A stretch of 64,000 bases of DNA, taken from NCBI RefSeq assembly GCF_003390325.1, contig NZ_QUOK01000003.1, positions 124,001 through 188,000 of the forward strand, in the 5' to 3' direction. A program made the position numbers and the translations under genes. Origin of the DNA: Rhodohalobacter sp. SW132. GTDB taxonomy: Bacteria; Bacteroidota; Rhodothermia; Balneolales; Balneolaceae. This document shows, piece by piece, positions 10,782 to 60,364 of the stretch. How positions within the stretch are numbered: position 1 is the first letter of the stretch; each line of letters begins with the position of its first letter. The notes beneath the pieces were generated by a model. That model was not told the origin of the DNA. It saw nothing but the letters and a program-made list of their open reading frames with translations, and searched no databases.

Positions 10782-10882
10782 AGACATGATATTTCTGAGG
10801 ACTCTGAATTATGCGAAAGGCATCAACACATTCAGGCTCAGAATATTGAAACCAAATGATTTCCATGAGAAATACCATGTCT
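10782..10882. repeat. Palindromic unit, RAYT-associated family (variant core)
   Basis: This 101-bp unit is bounded by AGACATGATATTTCTG (10782-10797, one mismatch from the family end) and GAGAAATACCATGTCT (10867-10882). These are the same inverted ends as in the large array at 46.3-48.3 kb, but the 69-bp interior differs. An identical-length sister copy lies 103 bp further on. Confidence 0.8.
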
Positions 10883-10984: not shown

Positions 10985-11085
10985 AGACATGGTATTTCTG
11001 AGGACTCTGACTTATGCGAAAGAAATCAACCCATTCAGGCTCAGAATATTGAAACCAAAGGGTTTCCATGAGAAATACCATGTCT
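10985..11085. repeat. Palindromic unit, RAYT-associated family (variant core)
   Basis: A second 101-bp copy with perfect ends AGACATGGTATTTCTG (10985-11000) and GAGAAATACCATGTCT (11070-11085). Its interior is nearly the same as that of the copy at 10782 (shared ATTCAGGCTCAGAATATTGA) and differs from the cores in the main array. The DNA between the two copies (10883-10984) is not repeated, so these are two separate insertions or a diverged duplication. Confidence 0.8.
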
Positions 11086-39870: not shown

Positions 39871-40707
39871 TTGTCATTTGTAACCTCCATTTTAGTGCCG
39901 ACCGATTTTTCCCGAAAGTCGGAAAATGCCATCCGGTATGCGTGTGAAATTGCCAGTAATACGGGAGCGGAAGTCCATTTTCTGAATATCATCGAAGAGC
40001 CGTACGATTTTCCGTCACGTGTGGATGAAATTTTGAAGGAAAAAAAGGAGCAGAACGAGAAGCGGCTGACGTCGATGATTGAAGAACTGCATTCGGTTGA
40101 TGAATTTCGAATTGTGCAGATGAAAGGGCTGGTTCGCGTTGGTAAGGTGATCTCCACCACGCGGTCGGTTGCCCGCGAATATGATCACAATCTTGTAGTA
40201 ATCGGGCTTGGAGGTGATGCGGATCTCAAAAAAGTTCTATACGGTAGCATCACCAATAATCTGCTCATGACGAGCTCCATACCAGTTCTGGCCATAGCGA
40301 AGCGAATCGATTACCGGCAGCCGCGCAGGCTCCTTTTTGCAACCGGCCTTCGGAAAAAAGATATCGCCCACATCAAAAAGATGCGGGAGTTTAGTATTGA
40401 TATCGGTGTTTCACTGGAGGTTGTGCATATTTCGGAACCTGACACCAAAACGAATCCTGGTAAAGTAGAGTCATTCAACCAGAAACTGCAGAAGATCACC
40501 AAAAACCCGGAAGCTTCGCTGACGATTCACAATGCACCGTCATTCATGGAGGGAATCACCGAACTGATCGGGGATGATAAACATACACTTTTAGTGATGA
40601 CCCGCTACCGCAAAAAATTCCTGGAATGGCTGCTCTCCAACAGCACCGTCCGTACAGTCGCTCAGATGGCCTCCGTTCCGCTGCTGATGCTTCCGGCTGA
40701 TGAGTGA
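39871..40707 (+). CDS. Tandem universal stress protein
   Basis: Two Usp domains in one 278-residue cytoplasmic chain. The TTG at 39871 directly follows an in-frame TGA (39865-39867), so it is the first possible start and gives the usual ILVPTDFSRKSENA beginning. Domain 1 (about 5-140) ends VVIGLGG...GSITNNLLMTSSIPVLAI, close to the ATP-binding GxxGS pattern; domain 2 (about 150-276) lacks a clear nucleotide motif. Usp proteins aid survival during starvation and energy stress. It is divergent from polA with repeats between, and is followed by a stray RAYT-family half site. Confidence 0.85.
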   Translation: MSFVTSILVPTDFSRKSENAIRYACEIASNTGAEVHFLNIIEEPYDFPSRVDEILKEKKEQNEKRLTSMIEELHSVDEFRIVQMKGLVRVGKVISTTRSVAREYDHNLVVIGLGGDADLKKVLYGSITNNLLMTSSIPVLAIAKRIDYRQPRRLLFATGLRKKDIAHIKKMREFSIDIGVSLEVVHISEPDTKTNPGKVESFNQKLQKITKNPEASLTIHNAPSFMEGITELIGDDKHTLLVMTRYRKKFLEWLLSNSTVRTVAQMASVPLLMLPADE

Positions 40708-40725
40708 AATTGGATTGGGTGGCAT

Positions 40726-40741
40726 GAGAAATACCATATCT
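40726..40741. repeat. Solitary half of the RAYT-associated repeat
   Basis: GAGAAATACCATATCT differs by one base from the right-hand end (GAGAAATACCATGTCT) of the units in the 46.3-48.3 kb array. No matching left end lies within 150 bp, so it is a remnant, 18 bp after the stop of the stress-protein gene. Confidence 0.6.
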
Positions 40742-45575: not shown

Positions 45576-46343
45576 ATGAGCAAAAAAACAGGCCTGATTA
45601 TTGTCGCCTTTCTCATAATCTTTATTGTGATCCGGGTGAATTTTGCGCTGAACTACTCGACTCAGAACCAATCTTCGGAGGCCGCGGAACCGTTTTCTCC
45701 GGAACTTCCGGTTTCGTTTACCGGAACACTGCCCTGTGCAAGTTGTCCCGGGATCAGCTATGAGCTCCGCCTTGAAGAGAACCAATCCTTTACAGAATTC
45801 AGCCGGTATCTTGATCGGGACCCGGGCGATTTTGTCTACACCGGACGCTGGTCCGCCGCCGAAGACAGCCTGACCCTCCACTTCGATCACTCAGATGATA
45901 TAAAACAGTTTCTGTATGCTGATGAAACCCTCAAATTGCTCGACAGTGAGGGAGAGACCATTACCGGTGAACTTGAAGATCACTATGAACTGCAGAAAAA
46001 TGATGAATTTCGGTCTATTCTGAACCTGCATCGTGAACTTCGTACAGAAGGTGTTACCTTTGTGGCCAACGGAAATGAACCGTTTTGGTCATACCGAATC
46101 CTGGAGAACAATACACTGGAATATGCTGCCCCCGGTGAAGAACAAATCTCCCGATCGATTCAAAAAGAAAACAATGAAGAAGGGTTTGAACTGACCGCAG
46201 AATTGAGCAGCGGGTTGATCCTGGAATCAATCGTTGAGGAGAAATTTTGCAAGGACACGATGAGCGGATTCCGCTTTTCACATACCGTTACAATCACACT
46301 CGGCGAAGAGACCCACTCCGGGTGTGGCCGGTTTTTGAGGTGA
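45576..46343 (+). CDS. NlpE-N domain / COG3650-like envelope protein
   Basis: A 255-residue protein anchored by one N-terminal helix (about 5-25). Residues about 45-125 form an NlpE N-terminal-like barrel with the CASCP motif (FTGTLPCASCPGISYELRL), which in NlpE binds copper or senses envelope stress. The second half (about 150-254) resembles the COG3650 domain (VTFVANGNEPFWSYRI, then EKFCKDTMSGFRFSHTVTI and GCGRFL), often fused to MliC/NlpE modules. It starts 8 bp after purE, so it is probably cotranscribed, an uncommon partner for purine genes. The repeat array begins 10 bp after its stop. Confidence 0.75.
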   Translation: MSKKTGLIIVAFLIIFIVIRVNFALNYSTQNQSSEAAEPFSPELPVSFTGTLPCASCPGISYELRLEENQSFTEFSRYLDRDPGDFVYTGRWSAAEDSLTLHFDHSDDIKQFLYADETLKLLDSEGETITGELEDHYELQKNDEFRSILNLHRELRTEGVTFVANGNEPFWSYRILENNTLEYAAPGEEQISRSIQKENNEEGFELTAELSSGLILESIVEEKFCKDTMSGFRFSHTVTITLGEETHSGCGRFLR

Positions 46344-46352
46344 AAGACACTC

Positions 46353-47080
46353 AGACATGGTATTTCTGTTCCATCATCCGCGTTCTTGGTGATAGAACAT
46401 CAACTACCTGCCAGCATATGCAGGGTTCCGAGTCTTGAGAAATACCATGTCTCCTCCACGCCCGGTTACTTGCCCCTCAGACATGGTATTTCTGTTCACT
46501 CATCCCTGTTCTTGGCGATAGAACATCAACAACCTGCCAGTATATGCAGGGTTCCAAGTCTTGAGAAATACCATGTCTCCTCCACGCCCGGTTCCTTGCC
46601 CCTCAGACATGGTATTTCTGTTCACTCATCCCTGTTCTTAGCGATAGAACATCAACTACCTTGCCAGCTCATGAAGGGTTCCGAGTCTTGAGAAATACCA
46701 TGTCTCCTCCACGCCCGGTTCCTTGCCCTCAGACATGGTATTTCTGTTCGATCATCCCTGTTCTTAGCGATAGAACATCAACTACCTGCCAGCTCATGAA
46801 GGATTCCGAGTCTTGAGAAATACCATGTCTCTTCCACACCCAAATCCTTGCCACCAGACATGGTATTTCTGTTCGACCATCCCCGATATTGGTAATAGAA
46901 CATCCACAACCACTCAGCTCATGTAAGGTTCCGAGCCTTGAGAAATACCATGTCTCTTCCACGCCCGGTTCCTTGCCACCAGACATGGTATTTCTGTTCA
47001 ATCATCCCCGTTCTTGGTAAAAGAATATCAACAACCTGCCAGCCTGTGCAAGATTCCGAATCACGAGAAATACCATGTCT
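46353..47080. repeat. RAYT-associated palindromic array, left part (6 units)
   Basis: Six units of about 100 bp, each opened by AGACATGGTATTTCTG and closed by GAGAAATACCATGTCT, are joined by 26-28 bp linkers (CTCCTCCACGCCCGGTTCCT, then TGCC...). Left ends fall at 46353, 46479, 46605, 46731, 46856 and 46981, and right ends at 46437, 46563, 46690, 46815, 46940 and 47065, a period of 125-126 bp. Each core also contains an inner stem CCTGC...GCAGG or a variant, and shared blocks such as GTTCTTGGCGATAGAACATC. The right part of the array continues after the transposase gene. Confidence 0.93.
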
Positions 47081-47127
47081 CCTTCACGCCCGGTTACTTG
47101 TTTAGAATTTTTTACTATATTTTTCGA

Positions 47128-47706
47128 ATGAGTCTACTCTACAACTTCCCATTTGAAGCAAATGAGATCTACCATGTTTACAACAAAGCCGTAGGAAAGG
47201 AAAAACTCTTTTACGGTGAAGACAACTATAGATTTTTTCTTCAAAAATTTAGTCAATATTTATCTGACTCTGCTCACGTCTACACATACTGCTTGATACC
47301 CAATCATTTCCACTTTTTGATTCGGGTTGCTCCAACCTCGTCGCCAAATTTAATTTCAGAAAAATTCAGAAGATTTCTGATTTCCTATTCAAAATCCATA
47401 AATAAACAGCAAGAAAGAAGTGGTTCACTTTTCAATAAACACTTAAAGCGGGTGAAGATTGACCATATGGAGCAGTTAATTTGGATCGTTTATTATATTC
47501 ATAGAAATCCATTGCACCACGGAATCACAAAAGATTTTAAAACATATAAATGGAGCTCTTTCAAAGCATTAGTATCTAACAAATACACTGAACTCAAAAG
47601 ACAGGAACTCTACGAGTGGTTTGATGGGAAAAAGCATTTCTTACAATTTCATGAGGAAAATCAAGTGCTTGATTTGGAGCGTTTCAGTCATCTATTCCTT
47701 GAATAA
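47128..47706 (+). CDS. REP-associated tyrosine transposase (RAYT, Y1/HUH family)
   Basis: A 192-residue single-strand DNA nuclease/transposase of the IS200/Y1 type. The HUH metal motif is IPNHFHFLIRV (His60 and His62), and the likely nucleophilic Tyr is 122 or 123 in IVYYIHRNPLHHG; KWSSFKAL near residue 141 is the family's tail motif. The frame is open from 47014, but the ATG at 47128 gives the family N-terminus (NFPFEANEIYHVYNKA) and upstream residues are translated repeat. The gene sits precisely inside a linker of the palindromic array. RAYTs cut and join REP hairpins and are thought to spread them. Its composition is more AT-rich than the flanking genes. It appears intact. Confidence 0.92.
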   Translation: MSLLYNFPFEANEIYHVYNKAVGKEKLFYGEDNYRFFLQKFSQYLSDSAHVYTYCLIPNHFHFLIRVAPTSSPNLISEKFRRFLISYSKSINKQQERSGSLFNKHLKRVKIDHMEQLIWIVYYIHRNPLHHGITKDFKTYKWSSFKALVSNKYTELKRQELYEWFDGKKHFLQFHEENQVLDLERFSHLFLE

Positions 47707-47717
47707 TATAAATCCCC

Positions 47718-48319
47718 AGACATGGTATTTCTGTTCGACCCTCCCCGTTCTTGGCGATAGAACATCAAGTACCTGCCAGCCTATGCAGGGTTCCGAGCCT
47801 TGAGAAATACCATGCCTCCTCCACGCCCGGTTCCTTGCCCTCAGACATGGTATTTCTGTTCGATCATCCACGTCTTGGCGATAGAATATCAACTAGCTTG
47901 CAAGCTCATGCAGGATTCCGAGCCTTGAGAAATACCATGTCTCCTCCACGCCCAATTCCTTGCCACCAGACATGGTATTTCTGTTCGATCATCCCCTTTC
48001 TTGGCAAAAAACATCAACAACCTACCAGCCTGTGCAGGGTTCCGAGCCACGAGAAATACCATGTCTCCTCCACGCCCGGTTACTTGCCCCTCAGACATGG
48101 TATTTCTGTTTGATCATCCCCGTTCTTGGCGATAGAATATCAACTACCTTGCAAGCTCATGCAGGATTCCGAGCCTTGAGAAATACCATGTCTCCTCCAC
48201 ACTCTATTCCTTGCCACTTAGACATGGTATTTCTGTTCGATCATCCCCGTTCTTGGTGATAGAACCAGAATAACTTCCCAGCTCATACCAGATACCAAGC
48301 CACGAGAAATACCATGTCT
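47718..48319. repeat. RAYT-associated palindromic array, right part (5 units)
   Basis: Five further units are in the same orientation and phase as the left part: left ends at 47718, 47843, 47968, 48093 and 48220, right ends at 47802, 47927, 48051, 48178 and 48304. One right end is mutated (ACCATGCCT at 47809-47817). The last unit ends 7 bp before the stop codon of the convergent HAD phosphatase gene. F6 to F7 measures 737 bp, that is one 125-bp period plus 612 bp of transposase segment. Confidence 0.93.
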
Positions 48320-48325
48320 TGTACA

Positions 48326-49072
48326 TCAACCCACACTACGGTTGTATTCAATCACCTCTTCATACGCTTCGAGGACTCCCTGTGTGGTTTCTCCAACCGT
48401 GACTTTGGCCACATCTTTGGCAACTTTTCGTGCATTGCTTGGCGCAAATGGCATTTTCACTTCTTTCAGCGCTACCGCATCACCGCCGGTATCCCCGATA
48501 TAGGCCATCTGGTCAAGTGAAATATTCAGATGTTCGCCAAGCAGCTGCAGCCCTCTGAGTTTGTTGTTACCGGGCATTAAGATGTTAATGGAGATCTCGG
48601 TTGTGTGAATCTCCAGACCTTCAAAGTTTTCAGGGATGTATTTTAGCGCACGTTCATGAATTTTGTTAATCACAGATTCATCCGGACATACAATCCCGGC
48701 ATCCATCATTTTTGTGAATTCCAGAATCGCATTTGGATACTCCGGCAGAATTTCGTCGGTGAGCCACGCTTTTACAGCGTAAATCGGATCGAGGGATTCG
48801 CCCGTTTCATCGAGGGCTGTCTGGATGCGGTTTCCCTCCCAGTGGTAAAGTCCCGCGCTTTCAAACACAAACGGATAGCGAATATCAAGCCACTGCCCTA
48901 CAGCCTCGGCATATGGGAATGGCCGACCGGTGCAGATGGTGAGCGGCGGAATTTCTGAATCCTCCGCACTTTTCTGGTTTAGCTCACGCAGCCTGTTGAT
49001 CGATTCCCAGTGCGGTGTTTTGAAAGGGTGAGAAATACATCCGTCAAGATCGGTTACAAATAGTTTAATCAT
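48326..49072 (-). CDS. HAD-superfamily phosphatase, Cof/SPP type
   Basis: A 248-residue cytoplasmic hydrolase. Motif I DLDGCISHPF holds the nucleophile Asp9 and acid Asp11 (written DxDG), motif II is ICTGRPF, the Lys is in the NNKLRGLQLL region and motif III is YIGDTGGDAVAL. The C2B cap (about 85-170) places it with sugar-phosphate or Cof-type phosphatases; sucrose- or mannosyl-phosphate phosphatase is possible. The gene lies directly next to the palindromic array and is probably cotranscribed after the VWA gene (5 bp apart). Confidence 0.85.
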   Translation of the reverse strand: MIKLFVTDLDGCISHPFKTPHWESINRLRELNQKSAEDSEIPPLTICTGRPFPYAEAVGQWLDIRYPFVFESAGLYHWEGNRIQTALDETGESLDPIYAVKAWLTDEILPEYPNAILEFTKMMDAGIVCPDESVINKIHERALKYIPENFEGLEIHTTEISINILMPGNNKLRGLQLLGEHLNISLDQMAYIGDTGGDAVALKEVKMPFAPSNARKVAKDVAKVTVGETTQGVLEAYEEVIEYNRSVG

Positions 49073-60036: not shown

Positions 60037-60114
60037 AGTATCGGAGATTAATTTACAGGTACTCCATTATAATCAAGAAATTCCAAAGATTAAATCTTTT
60101 GGTTTAGTGGGGTT

Positions 60115-60364
60115 TGAACCGCAGGGGCGCAAAGTCGCAGAGATGGGTTCTCGCAACGACGCGACGGCGCAATGTTTTTTTTTGAACCGCTGGGGCGCGA
60201 GGTCGCGGAGATGGTTTCTCGCAACGGCGCAATGGCGCAACGTTTTTTGGTGGGTTGGCCCGTGCTGGAGCGACGGCGCAACGTTTTTTAACCGCAGGGG
60301 CGCGATGGCGCGGGGTTGGAGGATGGGGTTTTGCCGATGATGAAGTGCCGATATTGATTAAAAA
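60115..60364. repeat. GC-rich CGGCGC repeat, copy C (three modules)
   Basis: Three modules follow each other, each with ACCGC(A/T)GGGGCGC..., GTCGC and CGGCGCAACGTTTTTT-like blocks (60119-60182, 60184-60250, 60270-60320), and the last ends in the GTTTTGCCGATGATGAAGTG tail. It fills most of the gap between the toxin-antitoxin unit and the propeller pseudogene. ORFs across it on both strands are artefacts. Confidence 0.75.

Follow-up and report, generated by a model that had tools for sequence, protein, structure and literature searches.

In Pseudomonas fluorescens SBW25, dense tandem clusters of REPINs beside RAYT genes have already been described (Bertels and Rainey, 2011, PMC3116915). E. coli BIMEs contain inverted REPs in consecutive tandem copies (PMC8266576), and REPINs in this species are commoner in genomes that carry a RAYT and persist in genomes without one (PMC8049555). 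Among the TnpA-Y1 transposases, subclass 2.6 comprises Bacteroidetes members whose associated palindromes are atypical (Quentin et al., 2018, PMC6006769). The copying of REPINs by RAYTs is still unsolved.

We analysed a 64,000-nucleotide stretch of DNA (the window) from a member of the Balneolaceae, in which a tandem array of inverted-arm units surrounds a RAYT gene. The reading that fits best is a BIME-like cluster adjoining its RAYT. With a probability of roughly 0.78, it is a tandem cluster of REPIN-like mobile elements beside their own RAYT (a "REPtron"), dispersed by the RAYT and copied locally.

An array of inverted-arm units around a RAYT gene

Eleven units, each 99-101 bp, occupy positions 46353-48319. 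Unit starts follow a period of 125-127 bp, or 737 bp where the RAYT gene intervenes, and TRF recovered the array independently (scores 828-1094), bearing out the eleven units of about 100 bp and the period given in a preliminary description of this DNA. The 16-bp inverted ends of that description are 15 bp long, position 16 setting G against G; that they are near-perfect stands, with perfect arm pairs in 10 of 11 units and one exception, unit 7, which ends ATGCCT. All linkers are 25-26 bp. The placing of the transposase gene between units six and seven also proved correct, as did the splitting of a linker into TTACTTG and CCCC, here by a segment of 613 bp: linker 6 reads CCTTCACGCCCGGTTACTTG (47081-47100), then the 613 bp, then CCCC (47714-47717), and the other linkers read CCTCCACGCCCGGTTACTTGCCCCTC. 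The segment showed neither a target duplication nor recognised IS ends.

46353..47080, + strand: left half of the array as a whole
46353-46452, 46479-46578, 46605-46705, 46731-46830, 46856-46955, 46981-47080, + strand: units 1-6, left half
46353..46367, + strand: left arm of unit 1, AGACATGGTATTTCT, a 15-nt REP-like sequence (AGACAT GGT ATTTCT), from arm covariation and the 6-3-6 register test on relatives
46438..46452, + strand: right arm of unit 1, AGAAATACCATGTCT, the inverse complement of the left arm
46453..46478, + strand: linker 1, 26 bp
47101..47713, + strand: 613-bp segment within linker 6, carrying the RAYT gene
47128..47706, + strand: RAYT, a TnpA-REP-like Y1 HUH transposase of 192 aa (HUH H60-F-H62; Y123 in YIHRNP)
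47718..48319, + strand: right half of the array as a whole
47718-47817, 47843-47942, 47968-48066, 48093-48193, 48220-48319, + strand: units 7-11, right half

An NlpE-domain gene (45576-46343) and a HAD-hydrolase gene (48326-49072) converge on the array, which lies 9 bp past the stop codon of the first and 6 bp past that of the second. In a Rhodohalobacter genome (G022; HAD protein identity 61%), the same convergent nlpE and HAD pair, with purE before it, is free of an array, indicating that the array was added where two convergent genes end. A clean empty site with exact junctions was not obtained, and in G003 the array locus is rearranged.

Three further members of the family in the window were absent from the preliminary description.

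10782..10882, + strand: dispersed unit with a core unlike those of the array
10985..11085, + strand: second dispersed unit, its core similar to that of the unit at 10782
40705..40741, + strand: truncated relic, right end only (GGATTGGGTGGCATGAGAAATACCATATCT)

The two dispersed units, 102 bp apart, lie past the end of a 304-aa ORF and that of a convergent secretion-type gene; synteny upstream of their site is absent in G001 and G003. Bases adjoining the relic match elements at C2:35913 (GGATTGGGTGGCATGAGAAATACCATATCT), making it a decayed singlet. The window also holds a 68-bp unit in two copies with 86% matches (60113-60248).

Paired arms, free cores and 6-3-6 hairpins

Pairing between the arms is compensatory. 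In 140 units from 24 genomes, arm positions 2, 4, 12, and 14 co-vary on both sides, as G-C or A-T at position 2 (96/43), C-G or T-A at position 4 (107/31), T-A or G-C at position 12 (110/29), and C-G or T-A at position 14 (119/17). The paired fraction at each of these positions is 0.95-1.0, against 0.24-0.40 in the control in which the arms were slid. Unit length is nearly constant, spanning 96-102 bp in 131 of 135 cases in a search open to 600 bp. As single-stranded DNA, whole units fold far better than shuffles (z -3.8 to -5.3), and cores alone fold no better than shuffles.

The units thus have the two inverted REPs, diverse spacer, and hairpin of a REPIN. The arms lack the GTAG/GTGG tetranucleotide, which is not conserved in the flanks either, and the units would work like GTAG REPINs while standing outside the GTAG superfamily. 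Other classes of repeat were considered. Both attC sites and CRISPR were rejected, as the arms are palindromic, there are no cassette genes, and no exact repeat alternates with unique spacers. A search of Rfam at E<=1 gave a single sub-threshold chance match, inside the RAYT gene, so no known RNA family is represented.

Units spread without their flanks. Within the genome that contains the window, homologous cores at distant sites are 76-86% identical and unrelated cores at most 67%, with flanks mostly at background; two sites that share a core, C1:432511 and C1:1106311, are separated by 674 kb. Homologous cores between background flanks indicate that arm, core, and arm spread as one piece. 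The outward flanks of 85 clusters revealed no target motif and no duplication. One sequence, CCACAACGCT, is common to unit flanks in several Rhodohalobacter genomes (L185, L187, L190, and L193) and could reflect either another family of repeats or a preferred site.

What the arm represents became apparent from RAYT homologues in other genomes. In the order, palindromes border these homologues at 28 of 45 loci, compared to 2 of 26 control gene loci, and in a scan of GTDB species they border 64 of 73 Bacteroidota RAYT loci, most often in a 33-bp format (15+3+15). Since palindrome-bordered RAYTs are common in Bacteroidota, the earlier view that the arrangement is unusual in this phylum fails for the pair itself. 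When 79 distinct arms of the 33-bp format were examined, 326 of 474 positions paired at the centre, against a mean of 129 and a maximum of 159 in shuffles, and in the adjacent half-step registers the fraction fell to 0.38-0.41. The 15-nt arms of this format are thus 6-3-6 hairpins, and for the window the most fitting reading is that the "end" is a REP and the whole unit a REPIN. At Bacteroidota homologues, each 15-nt 6-3-6 mini-hairpin arm of the 33-bp palindromes amounts to a compact REP that lacks GTAG.

The window arm, AGACAT GGT ATTTCT, fits the 6-3-6 plan with one mismatch (C4.T12), and a left arm of the AGACATGGTATTTCT type, a 6-3-6 near-hairpin, is present in every array unit. This 15-nt arm did not fold alone in silico; the Rhodohalobacter variants AGACAT GGT ATGTCT and AAACAT GGT ATGTTT are perfect 6-3-6 sequences. 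Arm variants include AGACATGGTATGTCT. The sequences are best read as making the window unit a REPIN in which the two REPs would lie ~70 nt apart instead of 3. Across Bacteroidota (L222-L301), each RAYT has its own arm sequence in its 33-bp palindromes, and a downstream palindrome copy is often found within about 40 bp of the RAYT stop codon. A 98-bp inverted repeat at the RAYT of G014 was not counted as an example of the ~100-bp format, as its arms face the other way.

Dispersal of units and linkage to RAYT genes

In the window's own genome, the arm was found 139 times with up to 2 mismatches, compared to 17 times for a reversed control. The two-arm pattern occurred at 53 sites, with 0 for the reversed control; arm pairs are therefore not products of chance. 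We collected 58 units at about 24 sites, one of which is the window array, so that the elements are dispersed and multicopy, as REPINs are, and mostly intergenic. The sites have the arms in common and differ in cores and linkers, and units within one array are alike. Most classifiable sites are flanked by convergent genes, in many cases with a stop codon 6-30 bp away, a position typical of REPs. Arrays of 5 and 8 units occur elsewhere in this genome with no RAYT near. An 8-unit array with AAACATGG arms lies at a contig start (L063, G000:C6:146-1112); assembly breaks of this kind probably hide further array copies.

Across the order, the two-arm pattern was present in 24 of 129 genomes (control hits, zero) and was limited to two genera, the window's own and g20 (Rhodohalobacter), whose named records are R. 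sulfatireducens WB101, a cultured strain that has a RAYT, and two Balneolaceae MAGs. Unit number ranges from 0 to 53 between related species. No IMG/VR contig carried the two-arm pattern.

The residues N59-H60-F61-H62 and Y123-I-H-R-N-P of the RAYT, which include the motifs of class 2 TnpA-Y1 proteins, are invariant or nearly so in the alignment. An AlphaFold (AF2) model (pLDDT 93.7) best matched PDB entry 4ER8, TnpA-REP with a REP hairpin (E=1.9e-8, TM 0.77 by target), followed by IS200/IS605 transposases; the predicted fold is thus that of TnpA-REP. A profile of the family also matched 4ER8 (E=2e-6). Scores fall below curated cut-offs (NF047646, 51.1 versus 80; PF01797, 20.1 versus 23 bits) and are still significant, consistent with a divergent homologue that would work like a RAYT. 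The gene is single copy, the two other homologues in the genome being 36-41% identical (L015, G000:C9:8019-8582, and L016, G000:C3:314355-314942). L015 is bordered by 33-bp palindromes (AACCCTCCAAGGGTT, AGACCTGACAGGTTTT); none were found beside L016. The G+C content of the linker-6 segment and RAYT is about 33-34%, versus 48% in the neighbours, which hints at transfer. Plasmids and phages yielded only distant matches to the RAYT, and PHROGs and PADLOC yielded none.

To place the RAYT among its relatives, we searched all 32 genomes of the two unit-bearing genera and found six close RAYTs: that of the window's own genome (G000) and those of G124 (54%), G058 (52%), G044 (52%), G123 (52%), and G134. 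The G134 gene is a contig-edge fragment, and a frame change breaks that of G123 (L202, G123:C289); this genome still carries 36 units. Units border every one of the six, as expected of a RAYT and its cognate REPINs, and in G000, G124, and G123 the gene lies within an array. One clade (support 100/94) unites the five genes that could be placed. Its sister clade (G060 and G047) has RAYTs flanked by 33-bp palindromes, whose arm, GATGGCATC, is related.

These relatives bear on whether the RAYT is an IS200-like insertion sequence that landed by chance in a linker of a pre-existing array. The clean split of linker 6 by an A+T-rich segment is what such a landing would leave. We consider it highly improbable, as the gene has one copy, no neighbouring tnpB, and no recognised IS ends, and thus lacks the features of an IS200/IS605 member, and as its fold and profile are TnpA-REP-like. 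The arrangement shared by the six RAYTs also argues against chance: in five other genomes the closest RAYT also has units of this family at its borders, and two of these genes lie within arrays whose linkers differ.

Units are more numerous where a close RAYT is present. Genomes with a close RAYT have a median of 30.5 units, versus 2 in those without (p=0.0025), and the association holds in genomes at least 90% complete (p=0.038), both values ignoring the relatedness of the genomes. Units in the absence of a detected close RAYT were seen in about 18 genomes, including G136 (23 units), G031 (22), and G139 (18); some of these absences are uncertain because of contig breaks in arrays, and fragmented assemblies may hide a RAYT. 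Arm decay was not significantly greater without a RAYT than with one (Fisher p=0.25). This co-occurrence resembles the REPIN/RAYT pattern of E. coli (PMC8049555), and the pairing of RAYT and element is well supported.

The preliminary description proposed that the transposase amplifies or maintains the units, and held that arrays without a linked RAYT would count against this. Taken literally, G136 has such an array, with 6 units and no close RAYT found; for the element family as a whole, the linkage stands. We retain a RAYT with cognate elements. The linked RAYT as maker or maintainer of the array is at most partly supported, given the 5- and 8-unit arrays far from any RAYT and the array of G136.

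Alternatively, the array may be host DNA that is retained because it serves the cell, for instance by terminating transcription in both directions, protecting mRNA 3' ends, or binding gyrase or a nucleoid protein at the ~125-bp period; the RAYT would then be incidental. E. coli BIMEs bind host proteins, and both the position of most classifiable sites close to convergent stop codons and the near-constant period and linker length of unrelated arrays fit this idea. However, it is unlikely, as it leaves unaccounted for the linkage of all six RAYTs, from one clade, to units, the variation in unit number between related species, and the lack of conservation of cores. Moreover, a scan of the array gave 3 terminator-like sites, close to the 1.5 (sd 1.3) expected from shuffled sequence, and none arose from the arms.

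Array growth and comparison with known systems

In our reading of the array as mobile elements beside their RAYT, each 15-nt arm would act as a REP, its short near-hairpin being recognised in single-stranded form. A pair of inverted REPs with about 70 nt between them would make one ~100-bp element, and this would form a long hairpin wherever the DNA is single-stranded, as on the template of the lagging strand. Acting in trans, the RAYT would cut and rejoin single-stranded DNA at the REPs, and in this way has likely carried the element to its roughly 24 sites, most of them immediately past stop codons. As the arms lack a GTAG/GTGG tag, recognition would have to differ from that of the tested TnpA-REP enzymes. 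A resident element and ~26 bp of neighbouring DNA would then be copied head to tail into a local array, for which replication slippage or recombination between hairpins seems likelier than repeated independent transposition.

In most arrays, adjoining units and linkers are copies of each other in a single orientation, which fits slippage or recombination. These processes leave unexplained the near-constant lengths of unit (96-102 bp) and linker. Linkers are 22-30 bp in 25 arrays of the two genera, and these arrays carry about 20 unrelated linker sequences (mean identity 0.55, equal to background). In a few cases (L065, L182, L201, and L202), the spacing is also held between neighbours with unrelated cores. 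Either the enzyme measures distance or selection does.

If the enzyme does, growth could be RAYT-driven, by measured insertion ~26 bp from a resident REP or by rolling-circle-like HUH copying, rather than by passive slippage. The constant linkers and the spacing between unrelated cores favour this route. It is the less likely route, as most neighbours and linkers are clear copies explained by slippage or unequal crossing-over, a genome in which no RAYT was detected also has arrays, and selection could set the spacing instead. For the window array, RAYT-driven amplification is possible. A more specific and doubtful proposal is that the cognate HUH protein measures two distances, the unit span and the 22-30 bp gap to the next unit, that arrays grow by targeted insertion, and that the rule switched with the RAYT clade from the 33-bp format of the sister RAYTs to the ~100-bp format.

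The unit family offers a compact test bed, with 15-nt GTAG-free arms, natural compensatory variants, spacing that is constant despite unrelated sequence, and a sister clade whose 33-bp palindromes have related arms. Our findings suggest that REP/RAYT systems can do without GTAG, that REPs of Bacteroidota have a 6-3-6 mini-hairpin as their basic unit, and that the substrate may include the spacing.

The units resemble the REPINs of SBW25 (PMC3116915) in their build, a diverse spacer enclosed by a pair of short, conserved, inverted arms, in being dispersed and non-autonomous, and in forming tandem clusters that include flanking DNA and adjoin single-copy RAYT genes. They differ in lacking a GTAG-tagged REP, with 15-nt arms on a 6-3-6 plan instead, and in the larger array (11 units with the gene inside), the phylum, and the lineage of the RAYT. 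With the E. coli BIMEs and TnpA-REP (REPtron Ec; PMC8266576, 4ER8), they share tandem inverted REP pairs, the predicted TnpA-REP fold, and REPs around the gene, although their arms are half as long and lack GTAG and the bulge, and the proteins are about 14% identical by structural alignment. TIRYTs and TIRtrons (Di Nocera et al., 2013, PMC3733652) also combine a RAYT homologue with inverted repeats unrelated to GTAG REPs, some in dimers or clusters; unlike these, our arms (AGACATGGTATTTCT) contain no GGGGWSAS motif and the protein is short, without a long C-terminal extension.

By sequence, the RAYT has the features of class 2 and appears close to subclass 2.6 (PMC6006769), with which it shares a Bacteroidetes host, the Y---NP motif, and atypical structures without GT[AG]G at the gene and in copies elsewhere in the genome. 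It departs from the motifs and spacing of that subclass: the HUH-Tyr distance is about 61 residues rather than the median of 82, NHFH and YIHRNP replace NH[LIV]H and YIH[QN]NP, F replaces the W motif, and the elements have the long-spaced ~100-bp format. The locus thus represents a new version of the REPIN/RAYT (BIME) theme, with tags that lack GTAG, 6-3-6 arms, a ~100-bp format, two fixed spacings, and a large array around the gene.
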